Virus record (IMG/VR): IMGVR_UViG_3300036817_000176
Coordinates: 1-64,000 of that record
Source of the DNA: a virus
Direction: 5' to 3' (one strand)
Length of the DNA: 64,000 bases
A model generated the notes under the pieces. That model made no database searches. It worked only from the letters and a program-made list of their open reading frames with translations, and had not been told where the DNA came from. Numbering within the stretch: the first letter of the stretch is position 1; each line of letters begins with the position of its first letter. Made by a program: the position numbers and the translations under genes. Below, one piece after another: positions 1 to 22,407 of this stretch.

Positions 1-671
1 GCCGCCACTACAACACCATGAGCCTTAAAGACATGAAGGCCATGAACGTCGCCGAACTGGCCGCGCCCACGTCTGTGCTCTGGATGTGGACCACTGCGCC
101 CCAGCTCCCCGACTCCCTCGAGCTGATGAAGGCCTGGGGATTCAACTACCGCACGATCGGCTTCGTGTGGGTCAAACGCTCCCCGCAACACTGGCGCAAC
201 GTCTCCGACCGTCTGCGTAAGCGGCTGCGGGCACACCTCGCTGATCAGCAGGGTGTATCACTCCCGAAACTCCGTCACTCATCCGTAAGGGCCACCCAGG
301 CGCTGGACTTCCTCACGCCAGACCTGATTGCGGATGTCAGCAAAGACTTCTGGCACTGGGGGCAGGGGCACTATACCCGCTCTAACGCCGAGATCGTGCT
401 GGTGGGCGTGCGTGGAAGGGGGCGGGTTCTGTCCCGCCTCGATAAGGGGGTACACCAGGTGCTTGAGGACCTGGTACAGGAGCACAGCGCCAAACCGGAG
501 GAGGTGTATCAGCGCCTTGACCGGCTCTACGGTGATGTAAAGCGTCTGGACATGTTCACCCGCCGCAACCGGCCGGGATGGTCAGCGCTGGGTGACCAGG
601 TGGCGCGCACGGATTACGTGATAGATCCCGACACCATGAAAATTGTACGCCGTGAGGACTTTGCGCCCTGA
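1..671 (+). CDS. MT-A70 family DNA adenine methyltransferase, 5' partial
   Basis: The frame is open from the left window edge; residues just before the first ATG (position 18) read RHYNTM, the segment that normally follows the catalytic DPPW motif of MT-A70 enzymes. The usual continuation is present: a SLKDMKAMNV stretch, then VLWMWTTAP (strand after the SAM site), GFVWVKRS, and NAEIVLVGVRGRGR near the middle. The catalytic DPPW itself must lie left of the window, so activity cannot be judged. The family transfers methyl groups to adenine N6; in phages it is usually read as protection from restriction. It heads a rightward run of small genes. The family call is firm; the specificity is unknown. 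Confidence 0.85.
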   Translation, partial: RHYNTMSLKDMKAMNVAELAAPTSVLWMWTTAPQLPDSLELMKAWGFNYRTIGFVWVKRSPQHWRNVSDRLRKRLRAHLADQQGVSLPKLRHSSVRATQALDFLTPDLIADVSKDFWHWGQGHYTRSNAEIVLVGVRGRGRVLSRLDKGVHQVLEDLVQEHSAKPEEVYQRLDRLYGDVKRLDMFTRRNRPGWSALGDQVARTDYVIDPDTMKIVRREDFAP

Positions 672-1228: not shown

Positions 1229-1978
1229 TTGAGCCTTACACCGATGATTTATACCTCGCCAAATAACGGCACCGACTGGATTCTCGCCGCGAAAGAAACG
1301 TTTGGCACGGATCTGACGCCGGTGCAGCACGAGATCCTGACAGCCATCCAGCGAACCGGCGCCAGCGTGTCGGCAGTTGAAACGGATGGGATGGGCAGGA
1401 GCCGCCTGTATGCGCTTATCTGCGCCTCGGCGGTGCTCCTTAACCCTGAGATTAAGGTGGTGCTCGTATCCACCGACGCAGCCCGCCTGAACAACACCCT
1501 CGGCGAGCTGCACTGCATCATTGCGAATGCCTTTGGTGAGCTGGGCTTCCATCACTCTGCGACGGCGCAGCTGAGCATGACGGTCATGCGGCTGGTGCGC
1601 GATAAGGTCGATTTCCACTATGCCCGGGAAGGGAACGAGGAGGCACTTGCGGGCTACTGCGACCGGCACTCGATTTTTATTCTGGACAATGCCGACCTGC
1701 TGCCAGCCTCGTCGCTGGGGGTGCTGCTGGGGGGCCTCACTGAAGAGGATAACCGCCTGCTGATGGTGTCCGAAGCGTACCGGAACGAGGGCTATTTCTA
1801 CGAAACGCTGCATAACCCCATCCATGAGCATTTCCATCGCGTGCGCAGCAAGTCTACCGATACTCCGCTGGTCACGCCTTCCTGGTGCGAGAAGGCCGCC
1901 GAAACACTTCCCCCGGAGCTCTACCGCCGCCGCATTCTGGGCGAGTTCCCGTTAACGACAATTGAGAAAACCGTATGA
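1229..1978 (+). CDS. Degenerate paralogue of terminase large subunit, ATPase half
   Basis: A 249-residue protein that aligns by eye along its whole length with residues 21-265 of the PacB-like terminase at 20902-22407. Shared blocks include DW..AA.E.FG, Q.EIL.A.Q.TGA, a NEE(A/S)LAG segment, and LTEEDNR.L followed by GYFY. The ATP site is damaged: the terminase GTGKS becomes GMGRS (Lys to Arg, residue 57) and the Walker B acidic pair DE becomes DN (153-154). It lacks a nuclease domain; the next gene, overlapping by ATGA, looks like that domain. A pseudoenzyme is inferred: a regulator of packaging, a decoy for another phage's terminase, or a relic kept by selection. Homology is strong; function is unknown. 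Confidence 0.75.
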   Translation: MSLTPMIYTSPNNGTDWILAAKETFGTDLTPVQHEILTAIQRTGASVSAVETDGMGRSRLYALICASAVLLNPEIKVVLVSTDAARLNNTLGELHCIIANAFGELGFHHSATAQLSMTVMRLVRDKVDFHYAREGNEEALAGYCDRHSIFILDNADLLPASSLGVLLGGLTEEDNRLLMVSEAYRNEGYFYETLHNPIHEHFHRVRSKSTDTPLVTPSWCEKAAETLPPELYRRRILGEFPLTTIEKTV

Positions 1979-2508
1979 GTGATAAAACGCTGCAGGTAGT
2001 GGCCATAACGTGCATGGATTCGTTTTACATGCGTGGCATGGATATCCGGCCCGGGAAGCTGCAGGAGGCATTCAACCTCCAGCTCGAGGAGCCGCGAAGC
2101 GTAGAAGATATGGCAACAACGGCGGCCGAGTTTTTTGCTGACAGCGGGAGGATGGTCATTCCGCTGGTGGACGTAACAGGCGCAGGAAAAGCGCTGGCCC
2201 TCGCGCTGCAGGTGAAAGGCTACGACGTGTTCATGTTCAACCCTGCAGCGTTATGCGAACCGGCACACGATGCACAGCGCTTTCTGAATCATCAGGCTAA
2301 GGGCGGCAATCTGTATAACGAGGGGGTTATGGCAGGATGTATCACCTATGTGGATGATACCGCGCCGCAGGAAGTCGAGTTGAACCGGAATGAAAGTGGC
2401 CAGCTGCAGGTACACGCTAAAAGTGGCGAAACACGGCTTTCCTGTATGCTCGGCTGGTTCTGGCATGGGCGTATTCAGGAGCTCACCACAGCGAACTGGT
2501 CAGTCTGA
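1975..2508 (+). CDS. Degenerate paralogue of terminase large subunit, nuclease half
   Basis: 177 residues, translationally coupled to the ATPase-like gene through an ATGA overlap. The middle matches the RNase H-like nuclease domain of the PacB-like terminase: an LVD..G.G block aligns with AVDGDGVGAD, and a QRFLN..A segment aligns with KRFLNKRA, each in the same order and spacing. The first catalytic aspartate region (LLLADVG in PacB) is replaced by VVAITCMD, and later acidic positions are not kept, so nuclease activity is unlikely. Together the two genes reproduce a whole TerL in two pieces. Weaker similarity than the first half, hence lower confidence. Confidence 0.6.
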   Translation: MSDKTLQVVAITCMDSFYMRGMDIRPGKLQEAFNLQLEEPRSVEDMATTAAEFFADSGRMVIPLVDVTGAGKALALALQVKGYDVFMFNPAALCEPAHDAQRFLNHQAKGGNLYNEGVMAGCITYVDDTAPQEVELNRNESGQLQVHAKSGETRLSCMLGWFWHGRIQELTTANWSV

Positions 2509-3966: not shown

Positions 3967-4620
3967 ATGGCACGGTTCGGGGAAGACTTTCTGCAGACGC
4001 AGCTGGAACGCCGTCAGAAGTGGGCCGAGAAAGGGCTGCGCAGCGGTTCCGGGAAGAGCTTCAATCTGTCGAACCCGGCCAGCAAGCCCGCCAGCAAGAA
4101 GAAGGTAAAGCGCGCTGTAGGCGCTCGCCTCGGTGACCCGGGCTACGTTTCGCCTCATGCCGTGGCAATGGCCATGCTGGCAAAGAATCCGGACCTACGG
4201 AAAGGGAACCAGGAGTATTACGAGCAGGTCGATTTGTTCGCCCGTATCGAGGTCGCAGACCCTGAGCTGTACGCTCTGACCAGCGCGATACCGAACGGGG
4301 GTTATCGCCCCGGCAAAACGGCAGGCATGATGACGGCCAGCGGCCTGAAGAATGGCTACCCTGATGTTATGGTCGATATGCCCCGTGGTGTGTATCACGG
4401 TTGCCGTCTGGAGCTGAAAGCGAAGGGCGGGCGTATCAGCGAAGCGCAGATATTCAAGCTGCGCCTGCTGGCCGAACAGGGCTACTATTGCACGCTGGCT
4501 GAAGGAGTGGAGGAGGCGTATCAGTTATTGATGCAGTATCGTCACCTTGCCCCTGGAGAATCAATGCCGACGTGGCCGCGTAATGCCGCCTGGGAAGAAA
4601 CGGAGAACAATAACAAGTGA
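3967..4620 (+). CDS. VRR-NUC domain nuclease
   Basis: 217 residues. Residues 1-60 are basic and probably disordered. The VRR-NUC core spans about 80-200: an acidic position in EYYEQ (82-86), then YPDV (D133), the LELKAKGG core (E149, K151) and Q161, the PD-(D/E)XK-type set of this family. VRR-NUC proteins in phages are structure-selective nucleases linked to replication or repair. The ATG at 3967 follows GGAGAG, 41 bp after motif site 1. The gene overlaps the next by 4 bp, starting a co-transcribed array. The family call is firm; the role is inferred. Confidence 0.8.
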   Translation: MARFGEDFLQTQLERRQKWAEKGLRSGSGKSFNLSNPASKPASKKKVKRAVGARLGDPGYVSPHAVAMAMLAKNPDLRKGNQEYYEQVDLFARIEVADPELYALTSAIPNGGYRPGKTAGMMTASGLKNGYPDVMVDMPRGVYHGCRLELKAKGGRISEAQIFKLRLLAEQGYYCTLAEGVEEAYQLLMQYRHLAPGESMPTWPRNAAWEETENNNK

Positions 4621-19489: not shown

Positions 19490-20902
19490 GTGGCAAAGAC
19501 CGACTGGCAGTATCACATAGCTAATTATCTGGAAAATTTCGCCAGCACGCTGACGCTGGCGCAATACGCCGATGCTAATGGTCTTAACCCGAACACCGTC
19601 CGTCGTGAAATGAAGCCCGCGATCAACGTGGCGCTGGCTGGCCAGCCCACCGATAAGAAACCCGCCACCAGAAGCAAGAAGCCCCCCAAAACCCCCGACG
19701 AACCGACACCTGTCCTGAAGGTCGGCAAGGTGCTGCGCGGTGAAGTCCGCCAGATGTCCGCCGACCAGCGCGCCGCCCGAAAACGTGATCAAAAAAGTGA
19801 TCAAATCAGTGATCAAAACGGTGGTGATCAAAAATCTGATCACAATCAGGGTGATCACAATAAGGGGCGAGGAAAGCGGGAACCCGCAGCCGGTAAGGCT
19901 CCGGCGGGAGGTAAGGGGAAAAAAGCGGGGGGCGACACACACGCTGATCACCCGGCCAGCGCGCGTGATCAGAATTTCCGGGTTCATACACCGACGCGCC
20001 CAAATGATGCCGCGTTGCCCGCGTTATGCGGCGAGGTGGGCGGCACCCATAACATGGATTTCGGCGGTTACTGTTCGCTGCTGGAAATGGACGACGACAT
20101 CGTGGAGCTGGCGCTGGCCACCGGGCTGGATAACCGCGACCTCGTTTTAGCCCAGGGCCGGTACATGACCATGTACCGCAAGCAAAACCAGATCCTCAAG
20201 AAGATAGCCGAGGACTACGACCGCGAGCCGTGGGTGGATGACGAAGGCGTGCCGATGCCGCGCGACCAGGTTGAGGCGCAGGCTATCTTCGGCACCAGTC
20301 AGCGCATGACCGAGCTGGAGGCGGCGATCGCCCGCCACAAGCTGGGGCTGATGAAGCTCGAGCTCGAGCGGCAGAAACAGGCCCTCGATGTCCGCAAGCA
20401 GGCACTGGCGGAGTGGAACCGGCACCCGATGCCGCTGGCCGAGCGTATCGAGCGTACCCGGGCGCTGATGCTTCACCGCGAAGAAAATGAGCTGACGGCG
20501 CTGGAGACGGCGCGCCTGTTCGACCTCGAACACCTCGAATACCCGCCGTCCCTGCAGGCGGAAATGCTCAAAGAGGTATCCTGGCTTGAGCAGACTGCAG
20601 ACCAGCACGGCGGCGTCACTGACGATGAGCTGGAAGCCGAGTCCCGCGAATACCGCGAGAAACAGCGGCAGGTGCGCGAAGAGTGGCTTCCGGCCCGTGA
20701 TGAAGAGATTGCATCCATCATCGCCAACGAGGCCGCACACCAGGCCGGTGAGCTCCTGCAGGAGGGCGATTTCACCGGCACCGATGATTCTGGCGGGGAG
20801 GGCGTGCTGGTTGGCGACGACGTGGACGCATGGAACCCTGATGACGCCCTTCCTGATGAAGACGACGCCGACCCGGACGCTGAGCCGGTGGAGACCTGGT
20901 AA
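19490..20902 (+). CDS. pacA: PacA-like terminase small subunit (pac recognition)
   Basis: 470 residues, GTG start with AGAGG upstream. The start (TLTLAQYADANGLNPNTVRRE) is the helix-turn-helix seen at the front of P1 PacA. Residues about 95-160 encode, and are distorted by, the pac array: a run of DQ-rich repeats written by TGATCA. Residues 270-330 and 380-430 are long coiled-coil helices, and the C-terminus is acidic. In P1 the protein binds the hexamers in its own gene and recruits PacB to begin headful packaging. The TAATG overlap with the next gene supports a paired complex. Confidence 0.85.
   Translation: MAKTDWQYHIANYLENFASTLTLAQYADANGLNPNTVRREMKPAINVALAGQPTDKKPATRSKKPPKTPDEPTPVLKVGKVLRGEVRQMSADQRAARKRDQKSDQISDQNGGDQKSDHNQGDHNKGRGKREPAAGKAPAGGKGKKAGGDTHADHPASARDQNFRVHTPTRPNDAALPALCGEVGGTHNMDFGGYCSLLEMDDDIVELALATGLDNRDLVLAQGRYMTMYRKQNQILKKIAEDYDREPWVDDEGVPMPRDQVEAQAIFGTSQRMTELEAAIARHKLGLMKLELERQKQALDVRKQALAEWNRHPMPLAERIERTRALMLHREENELTALETARLFDLEHLEYPPSLQAEMLKEVSWLEQTADQHGGVTDDELEAESREYREKQRQVREEWLPARDEEIASIIANEAAHQAGELLQEGDFTGTDDSGGEGVLVGDDVDAWNPDDALPDEDDADPDAEPVETW
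19786..19971 (+). other. pac: pac packaging site: eight TGATCA hexamers
   Basis: TGATCA occurs at 19786, 19798, 19810, 19825, 19837, 19852, 19945 and 19966. Intervals of 12, 12, 15, 12 and 15 bp keep the reading frame of pacA; then an 87-bp gap separates a left cluster of six from a right pair. P1 pac has seven TGATC(A/G) elements in clusters of four and three inside pacA, and needs Dam methylation of them. The layout here is 6+2 in 186 bp. No clear IHF consensus is visible in the gap. Confidence 0.85.
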
Positions 20903-22407
20903 TGGGCAAGATACGCTCTATTACCCGCGACCCGCGCTACCGGGACCTGGTGCGCCGGTACCGTTACGACTGGACGACGGCCGCGGTGGAGCTGTTCGGC
21001 AAACACCCCACCTGGCAGCAGGAGCTGATCCTTAACTCTGCGCAGGAAACCGGCGCCAAGACGGCCGTCTCTTCCGGCCACGGTACCGGCAAGTCGGACA
21101 TGACCAGTATCATGATCCTTATCTACATGCTGTGCTTCCCCGGCGCGCGCGTGGTGGTGGTGGCCAACAAAATCGGCCAGGTGCAGCAGGTGGTCTGGAA
21201 GTACCTCAAAATCAACTATCGTGAGCTCTGCCGCCGTCACCCATGGGTGGAGCAGTATTTCGTGCTGACGGAAACCACCTTCTTCGAGCGCTCCAGTAAG
21301 GGCGTCTGGTTCGTCAGTCCGAAAGGTTGCCGTATCGGTAACGAAGAATCCCTCGCCGGTGAGCACGCCAAACACCTCTTCTACATCGTCGATGAGGCCT
21401 CTGGCGTCTCGGATAAGGCCTTTGGGGTGATGACCGGTGCTCTGACCGAGGAAGACAACCGCATCCTGCTGCTGAGCCAGCCAACGCGTCCAAGCGGCTA
21501 CTTCTACGATTGTCACCACAAGCTGGCCAAGCGCCACCCGGGCGACAAGGAAGGCTACACGGCGATCAAGCTCAACTCCGAGCAGTCACCGCTGGTTACC
21601 ACGGCGTTTATCCGTACCAAGATCCGCGAATATGGCGGCTCCCGTGACGCGCCGGAATACATGATTAAGGTCCGGGGCGAGTTCCCGCGCACCAGCGCCG
21701 CTAACCTGCTGTCGCGCGACGAGTGCGAACGCGCCACCAAATCCACGCCGAAGCTGGCCAAGGGCTGGGGCTGGCTGCTGCTGGCCGACGTGGGCAACGG
21801 CCGCGACAGCTCCGTGGCCACCCTGGTACGCGTCAGTGGCGACCGCTACGAGCGCCGCGTGGTGCCGGTGTCCGTGAAGGAATGGCCGGGTACCATCGAT
21901 CCGGTGAATTTCGGCCGCCTGCTGGCCGCTGAGTACACGACGGACCAGTACCCGAACCTTTCCATCGCTGTCGATGGCGACGGCGTAGGGGCCGATACAG
22001 CGACGATTCTGGAGGAGGCCGGTCGGCAGGTGCAGCGCATCCGCTGGGGCCAGCCGTGCTTCTCCCAGGAAGATAAGAAACGCTTCCTCAATAAACGCGC
22101 CTACGCGAACATCATGGCACGCGATGCCGTGCGAACCGGCCGCCTGCGCCTCGACCGGCACGAGAAGACCCTCGATCAGGCCTCGCGCCTCCCGTGCAAG
22201 CTGAATGAGCAGGGGCTCTGGTGCATGATGCCGAAAGAGACAATGCGCAAGGAGCTGGGCCTGCCGTCTCCTGACCGCTGGGATACGTATTGCTTCAGCT
22301 TTATGGCAGATTATGTCCCGGCAGAAATGGTCATTACCGGCGATATGGTCAAGGAGCGTGAGTCGGTGGCGGGATGGGCGCGGGATCTTGTTGCAGAGGA
22401 TGTCTGA
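20902..22407 (+). CDS. pacB: PacB-like terminase large subunit
   Basis: 501 residues. Walker A SGHGTGKS (58-65) and Walker B LFYIVDE (159-165, with E165 catalytic) give the packaging motor; the RNase H-like nuclease begins with LLLADVG (D296) and continues with AVDGDGVGAD (D358, D360). It cleaves at pac and pumps DNA into the prohead. A coupling motif SQPTRPSGYFY follows Walker B. A strongly similar but inactive two-gene copy lies at 1229-2508. A CCCCGCC/GGCGGGG hairpin without T-run (22410-22437) lies between this gene and the convergent gene. Confidence 0.92.
   Translation: MGKIRSITRDPRYRDLVRRYRYDWTTAAVELFGKHPTWQQELILNSAQETGAKTAVSSGHGTGKSDMTSIMILIYMLCFPGARVVVVANKIGQVQQVVWKYLKINYRELCRRHPWVEQYFVLTETTFFERSSKGVWFVSPKGCRIGNEESLAGEHAKHLFYIVDEASGVSDKAFGVMTGALTEEDNRILLLSQPTRPSGYFYDCHHKLAKRHPGDKEGYTAIKLNSEQSPLVTTAFIRTKIREYGGSRDAPEYMIKVRGEFPRTSAANLLSRDECERATKSTPKLAKGWGWLLLADVGNGRDSSVATLVRVSGDRYERRVVPVSVKEWPGTIDPVNFGRLLAAEYTTDQYPNLSIAVDGDGVGADTATILEEAGRQVQRIRWGQPCFSQEDKKRFLNKRAYANIMARDAVRTGRLRLDRHEKTLDQASRLPCKLNEQGLWCMMPKETMRKELGLPSPDRWDTYCFSFMADYVPAEMVITGDMVKERESVAGWARDLVAEDV

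Follow-up and report, generated by a model that had tools for sequence, protein, structure and literature searches.

The stretch of DNA analysed here (the window; 64,000 nucleotides, positions 1 to 64,000 of the IMG/VR virus record IMGVR_UViG_3300036817_000176) encodes a complete terminase large subunit (TerL) of the type of PacB, the large terminase subunit of P1, P7 and D6. The gene (20902..22407; like all window features described below it lies on the plus strand) matches phrog_5902 at 8.7e-117 and phrog_2 at 2.2e-38. Its motifs are complete (GHGTGKS, DEAS, DVGNG, VDGDG and RWDTYC), with all three nuclease Asp residues, and its start is overlapped by the gene of a PacA-like terminase small subunit (19490..20902; phrog_1711 2.6e-13, phrog_370 2e-9). 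Near the beginning of the window two further genes overlap each other by ATGA. Gene A (1244..1978) encodes 244 amino acids (aa) from its likely start ATG 1244; the open reading frame (ORF) opens at TTG 1229, which gives 249 aa, and there is no clear ribosome-binding site at either start. Gene B (1975..2508) encodes an orphan protein of 177 aa. The initial annotation described both frames as intact, and this holds: A and B are open, and coding signal is confined to the annotated frame (0.295 bits per codon for A, 0.166 for B). Gene A is flanked by an MT-A70-type DNA methyltransferase gene upstream (18..671; phrog_359 4.5e-55), which is cut by the contig start and has a like gene order in M17, and by a VRR-NUC/Holliday-junction-resolvase-like gene downstream (3967..4620; phrog_2363 7.4e-44, phrog_5702 6.2e-13), which is kept in Leclercia and Aeromonas relatives.

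The whole product of gene A can be aligned with residues 23-265 of the window TerL (gene A residues 16-244; 31% identity, blastp E 3e-28). The Smith-Waterman score of this pair is 242, compared with a mean of 33 and a maximum of 49 for shuffled sequences. Profile searches match gene A to phrog_5902 at 1.9e-33 and to phrog_2 (terminase large subunit) at 4.8e-6, and the blocks NEEALAG, LTEEDNR, GYFY and GEFP are all found in the order of the TerL. The proposal that gene A carries the ATPase half of a terminase is thus confirmed, as is the loss of the Walker A Lys and the Walker B Glu. Read directly, Walker A is GMGRS (1388..1402; Lys replaced by Arg, invariant in 4/4 A sequences) where the PacB-type TerLs have GHGTGKS, and Walker B is ILDNA (1679..1693; catalytic Glu replaced by Asn, VDN or LDN in all four A sequences) where live PacB TerLs have DEA. 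In comparison with live TerLs the coupling motif is degenerate as well, SEAYR (1769..1783) replacing SQPTR, and the three-Asp nuclease domain is missing from gene A. Judged by its sequence, gene A is a genuine paralogue of the window terminase that covers the ATPase half in full, and sequence homology settles its predicted fold. A search of solved structures (PDB) by sequence found no terminase for gene A; this empty result is uninformative because the true window PacB in the same search gave only a sub-threshold match to Gene 2 protein.

Gene A belongs to what is almost certainly a family of dead PacB paralogues. We coined the name dPacB for these proteins, which lie within PHROG 5902, a family of unassigned function that also catches true PacB (8.7e-117) and in whose entry the dead nature is not mentioned. 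Adding up identity classes gives about 169 plasmid records with a dead copy, out of about 780 in which a PacB-like match was present. The X type (356-364 aa, motifs HGIGET and VIN) occurs beside a normal PacB in P1-like plasmids, with about 120 plasmid records at an identity of at least 80%, and in phage vB_EcoM-813R1, whose copy (L011 4941-6011) has an altered C-terminal end and is shorter than those of its relatives, probably through a frameshift. The R type (363 aa, motifs HGIGRP and VDS) is found in D6-like plasmids (34 records at an identity of at least 95%), together with a divergent allele class, R2 (10 records, 60-80% identity), which has Gln or His in place of the Walker A Lys. Full-length X and R match PHROG 5902 end to end (2e-179 and 2e-165). 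They share a C-terminal domain of about 95 aa that is unrelated to the TerL nuclease and replaces the nuclease half. This domain is a separate gene in Cronobacter phage JK004 (gene_35, L102 4001-4297; 98 aa, PHROG 17928), close to a DnaB-type helicase gene. A-type copies are present in Leclercia, three of them intact and one broken (pW17-2), and a stand-alone version of 263 aa with the motifs GIGCKH and CPNA, ending directly after GLFPK, is present in two Citrobacter plasmid records.

In every dPacB record checked, the window included, a PacB gene is resident on the same element. P1 and P7 were found to have no dPacB, most phage-plasmids with PacB are without it, and no gene A was found in the Aeromonas relatives that resemble the window in the genes nearby. 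Scans of contigs required an alignment of A and X as query; gene A alone, searched against viral and genome contigs, gave nothing usable among close-relative scans. Several records contain interrupted terminase genes. In Leclercia pE1_003 (L005 25433-30622) the true terminase gene is split by Tn5403 and the dead copy is intact, and in Aeromonas pASP-135 (L010 1935-3880) TerL is cut by IS26 beside the resistance gene blaKPC-2, on a phage-plasmid. Xenorhabdus szentirmaii (L097 3952-5300) has a normal PacB-type terminase as two ORFs for the N- and C-terminal halves, perhaps because of a frameshift.

PacB and dPacB proteins are roughly 25-40% identical. Like PacB, dPacB has the ATPase-domain fold with NEE-LAG, LTEEDNR, GYFY and GEFP in order. 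PacB, however, is essential, adjoins PacA and has intact Walker A and B motifs, coupling motif and nuclease, whereas dPacB has lost both the nuclease half and the residues for catalysis, and is encoded in early or accessory gene clusters. The residue at the Walker A Lys position across the dPacB family is R, E, Q, H or C, and never K. Walker B is altered in X and R also; one R2 allele keeps the Glu and has lost the Asp. Of the 100 positions that are nearly invariant in live PacBs, 48 are retained in X, 50 in R and 42 in A, and 25 scaffold positions are retained in all three. Lys64, Glu165, Gln193, Thr195 and other ATP-site residues are lost in X, R and A alike; Gln193 and Thr195, nearly invariant in live TerLs, belong to the coupling motif region and are substituted in each type. 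dPacB is a TerL-derived pseudoenzyme, a variant of a known fold family.

Most dPacB pairs read as being under purifying selection, with dN/dS at 0.05-0.23 within R, at 0.16-0.45 in most comparisons within X and at 0.16-0.39 within A. Among near-identical copies the X values are noisy, and those above 0.45 come mostly from pairs with the frame-altered 813R1 copy. For the last 104 codons of the window A compared with M17 the ratio is 0.59, and part of the window A may therefore be fast-evolving or exchanged. This fast C-terminal part, together with the loss of most of gene A in pW17-2, where IS1 is inserted and only a fragment remains, indicates that dPacB is dispensable in some lineages. The same two observations would suit a duplicated terminase that is functionless and being lost, as would a gene B for which no relatives were found and which might be a nuclease half in decay. 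Against such decay stand the full-length copies found in four lineages (about 165 plasmids), a dN/dS that for most pairs is well below 1 and the absence of the Walker A Lys in every clade; we consider decay very improbable, and conservation largely refutes it for gene A. We likewise rejected gene A as a simple pseudogene, given its conservation, dN/dS below 1 and membership of a dead clade, yet the copy of pW17-2 is broken. The initial annotation had proposed a dead terminase paralogue kept by selection and had named frameshifted copies in all relatives as the sign of simple decay. Its proposal is borne out by kin in Leclercia, Citrobacter, P1-like and D6-like elements; most of these copies are intact, that of pW17-2 being broken.

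The dead proteins probably share one origin. In a tree that included outgroup TerLs and was computed without the ATP-site (Walker) columns, the 17 dead proteins all fell into one clade with a support of 99/98.7, with long branches involved. Placing the window-type A beside the window-type TerL costs 15 lnL units and is not rejected (AU p 0.11), and neither is a constraint under which TerL joins X and R while A stays outside (p 0.16). Once the Citrobacter copy is included, the analysis neither shows a single dead clade nor rejects it (p 0.41). A recent duplication of the window's own TerL is not the favoured origin of gene A, since the best tree groups A with X and R.

Gene B was taken in the initial annotation for the nuclease half of the terminase. 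Part of the evidence agrees. Gene B scores 29.6 bits against the window TerL (pairwise E 4e-5) and is the top scorer among about 980 unrelated (non-terminase) ORFs, the runner-up having 25.8 bits. Its alignment with the nuclease half is collinear and includes RFLN (2278..2289), which is common to gene B and the window TerL, and hhalign of the two gives a probability of 33% with an E of 4.6e-4. On the other side, an HMM of the nuclease half hardly separates gene B (5.0 bits) from its own shuffles (3.5 bits), and AlphaFold (AF2) prediction from the single sequence reaches a pLDDT of only 36. With TerL rows added the pLDDT is 52.5, and the first 90 residues adopt an RNase H-like topology at modest confidence; Foldseek places TerL nucleases among many RNase H-like folds matching this model, at low confidence. 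The model is not independent evidence, because the TerL rows informed it. If gene B is homologous to the TerL nuclease, the second catalytic Asp is retained (D66, 2170..2172, aligned with the second nuclease Asp in AVDGDG) and the first is lost, as had been claimed, and the third is lost too. We regard it as likely that gene B is a diverged nuclease half of TerL.

The further claim, that A and B form a conserved non-catalytic pair, did not survive comparison with related elements. Orthologues of gene A occur in three Leclercia plasmids (82%, 53% and 53% identity), each with its own PacB gene and none with gene B. In all intact A-type relatives gene A ends just after G(E/Q)FP, and it ends at the same point, likewise without B, in Citrobacter. 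No relative of gene B was found in 72,556 plasmids, in 50,697 phages or in the records of the gene A relatives, and none in IMG/VR contigs, which were scanned with exact peptide patterns that reach close relatives only. The split pair is thus conserved in none of the related phage-plasmids searched, and gene B as a conserved partner of A was rejected. So was a large terminase subunit made by two genes, B being found only in the window and the halves not being conserved together. No similarity was found that would make gene B the C-terminal domain of X and R, or IsaA. Gene B is probably what remains of the lost nuclease half as it decays, or else a partner specific to this lineage. Collinearity of the window with pM17-63 extends to base 1951 and resumes at base 2516. 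The slot after gene A between these points (1952-2515) is variable: it holds B in the window, a gene for an HTH regulator in pM17-63, and IS1, HigB and HTH in pW17-2.

In P1-like elements the gene order is ssb-isaA-dPacB, set apart from pacA-pacB, with dPacB adjoining hxr-ddrB-ddrA-darA. The C1 operator upstream of ssb is identical in P1 and three records with handles L006, L011 and L012. An orthologue of the P1 protein IsaA (PHROG 2326) is encoded directly upstream of dPacB in both P1-likes and D6-likes, and isaA and dPacB overlap. P1 itself retains isaA, and IS1-isaB occupies the place of dPacB (P1 NC_005856, L013 7570-10133); P1 appears to have lost the dPacB gene, with IS1 and isaB now in its place. 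P1 can do without either isaA or isaB (PMC10695390). In D6-likes a conserved early cluster consists of dut (dUTPase), a Tad2-like gene (PF11195), isaA and dPacB (L104 6045-9089; L118 1485-4595; L119 1527-4598), and in an E. albertii P1-like element a Tad2-like gene precedes isaA as well. No Tad2-like gene was found in the window record, in pM17-63, in pW17-2 or in two of the three P1-like dPacB records checked. The Citrobacter dPacB comes after a gene for a Ref-type nuclease. A separate architecture is seen in the window and the A-type relatives, in which neither IsaA nor the C-terminal domain of about 95 aa adjoins gene A.

This neighbourhood could be read as that of early DNA metabolism, with the TerL fold re-used as a structural scaffold together with IsaA and, where present, the C-terminal domain. 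The sharing of an operon with ssb (P1-likes) or dut (D6-likes), the overlap of isaA and dPacB, the free-standing C-terminal domain near a helicase gene in JK004 and the nuclease gene before the Citrobacter copy all fit such a scaffold. It is nonetheless an improbable role in our estimate, as the A-type and Citrobacter members have neither the upstream IsaA nor the C-terminal domain, and as it is the TerL-like domain that varies most.

Alternatively, dPacB could regulate the packaging of its own element. By binding PacA, the portal or PacB it would delay or limit early packaging, as a dominant-negative subunit. The retained residues of the TerL ATPase scaffold, the separate C1-controlled operon of P1-likes and the PacB gene in every record checked are in keeping with this. 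However, P1, P7 and the Aeromonas relatives do without dPacB, as do most phage-plasmids with PacB; P1 packages with IS1-isaB in the slot, isaA and isaB being non-essential there (PMC10695390); and gene A is just about 31% identical to its own TerL. We judge regulation of the element's own packaging to be unlikely.

Variation in dPacB is greatest in the TerL-like domain. The R and R2 elements have only 49-53% identity in the DIVERSIFYING domain (TerL-like), with a dS of about 1.25, but 95-97% in the C-terminal domain, 92-98% in the live TerL and, for most pairs, 97-98% in IsaA, of which these elements also have a second allele (about 73%). Residues 85-140 concentrate the amino-acid change within both X and R2 (p 2e-5 and 4e-11), and pN/pS there rises up to 0.6-0.9 compared with about 0.05-0.28 in more diverged pairs of live TerLs. 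The pattern fits domain exchange plus local relaxation or diversification, and would be compatible with a role in recognition without being proof of one. Swapping of the TerL-like domain between alleles would also be expected if dPacB were a weapon with a varying target, halting the packaging of co-infecting phages or satellites by being built into them or by occupying their portal; the accessory distribution agrees with that. Yet dPacB is closest to PacB-type TerLs, so that the element's own motor would be threatened at least equally, and we hold a weapon against competitors to be quite unlikely.

We consider it most likely that dPacB is an early-acting mimic or decoy rather than part of a split motor. 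In the window the conserved unit would be gene A alone, as a mimic of the ATPase half. Keeping the scaffold of a packaging ATPase without the residues for hydrolysis, dPacB would act by binding and not by catalysis. It may be an accessory protein that is made early in the lytic cycle and, as a TerL mimic or decoy, occupies or blocks a protein of the host or of a rival element that recognises the packaging motor. To this overall explanation, a family of dead paralogues acting as early TerL mimics or decoys, we assign a probability of about 0.4. Avs immune receptors recognise TerL and are known to be triggered by it (PMC12931631), and such TerL-sensing receptors are one candidate class of targets. 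With the sensor blocked, the real terminase would be free to work later. The proposed logic, in which a sensor is engaged without being activated, is that of decoys against immune sensors such as DSAD1 against DSR2; no sequence relation is claimed.

As a tentative proposal, the mechanism we favour is mimicry of TerL to weaken a defence that recognises it, because dPacB is accessory and encoded apart from the packaging genes, because its TerL-like part is variable and because some members have an anti-defence neighbour. The early-operon context, the domain swapping and that neighbour favour counter-defence slightly over the two possible roles suggested in the initial annotation, control of the element's own packaging and poisoning of a competitor's. 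Two arguments weigh against the decoy: made early, it could set off a TerL sensor rather than block it, and genes outside arms races undergo domain exchange too. dPacB was rejected as a known defence or anti-defence family, as the dead paralogues had no match above cut-off in PADLOC, which covers defence and not counter-defence proteins, in Pfam or in NCBIfam. The more specific picture of a dedicated, diversifying dead terminase mimic that blinds TerL-sensing defences, or else disarms rival packaging, is possible though doubtful.

In the open-access papers searched no description of a dead terminase paralogue was found, and the dPacB family is apparently undescribed so far. The terminase motor is among the most conserved phage machines. 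In E. coli, Salmonella and Klebsiella, phage-plasmids of the P1-like and D6-like kinds carry a dead copy of its engine domain that is intact and widespread. dPacB also suggests an explanation of the variable isaA-IS1-isaB region of phage P1, in that P1 appears to be without a gene retained by many related elements. Proteins filed as hypothetical (PHROG 5902 and 2326) become the subject of a testable hypothesis. If the role in counter-defence is true, dPacB would represent a new class of phage counter-defence, a pseudoenzyme built from the phage's own motor.
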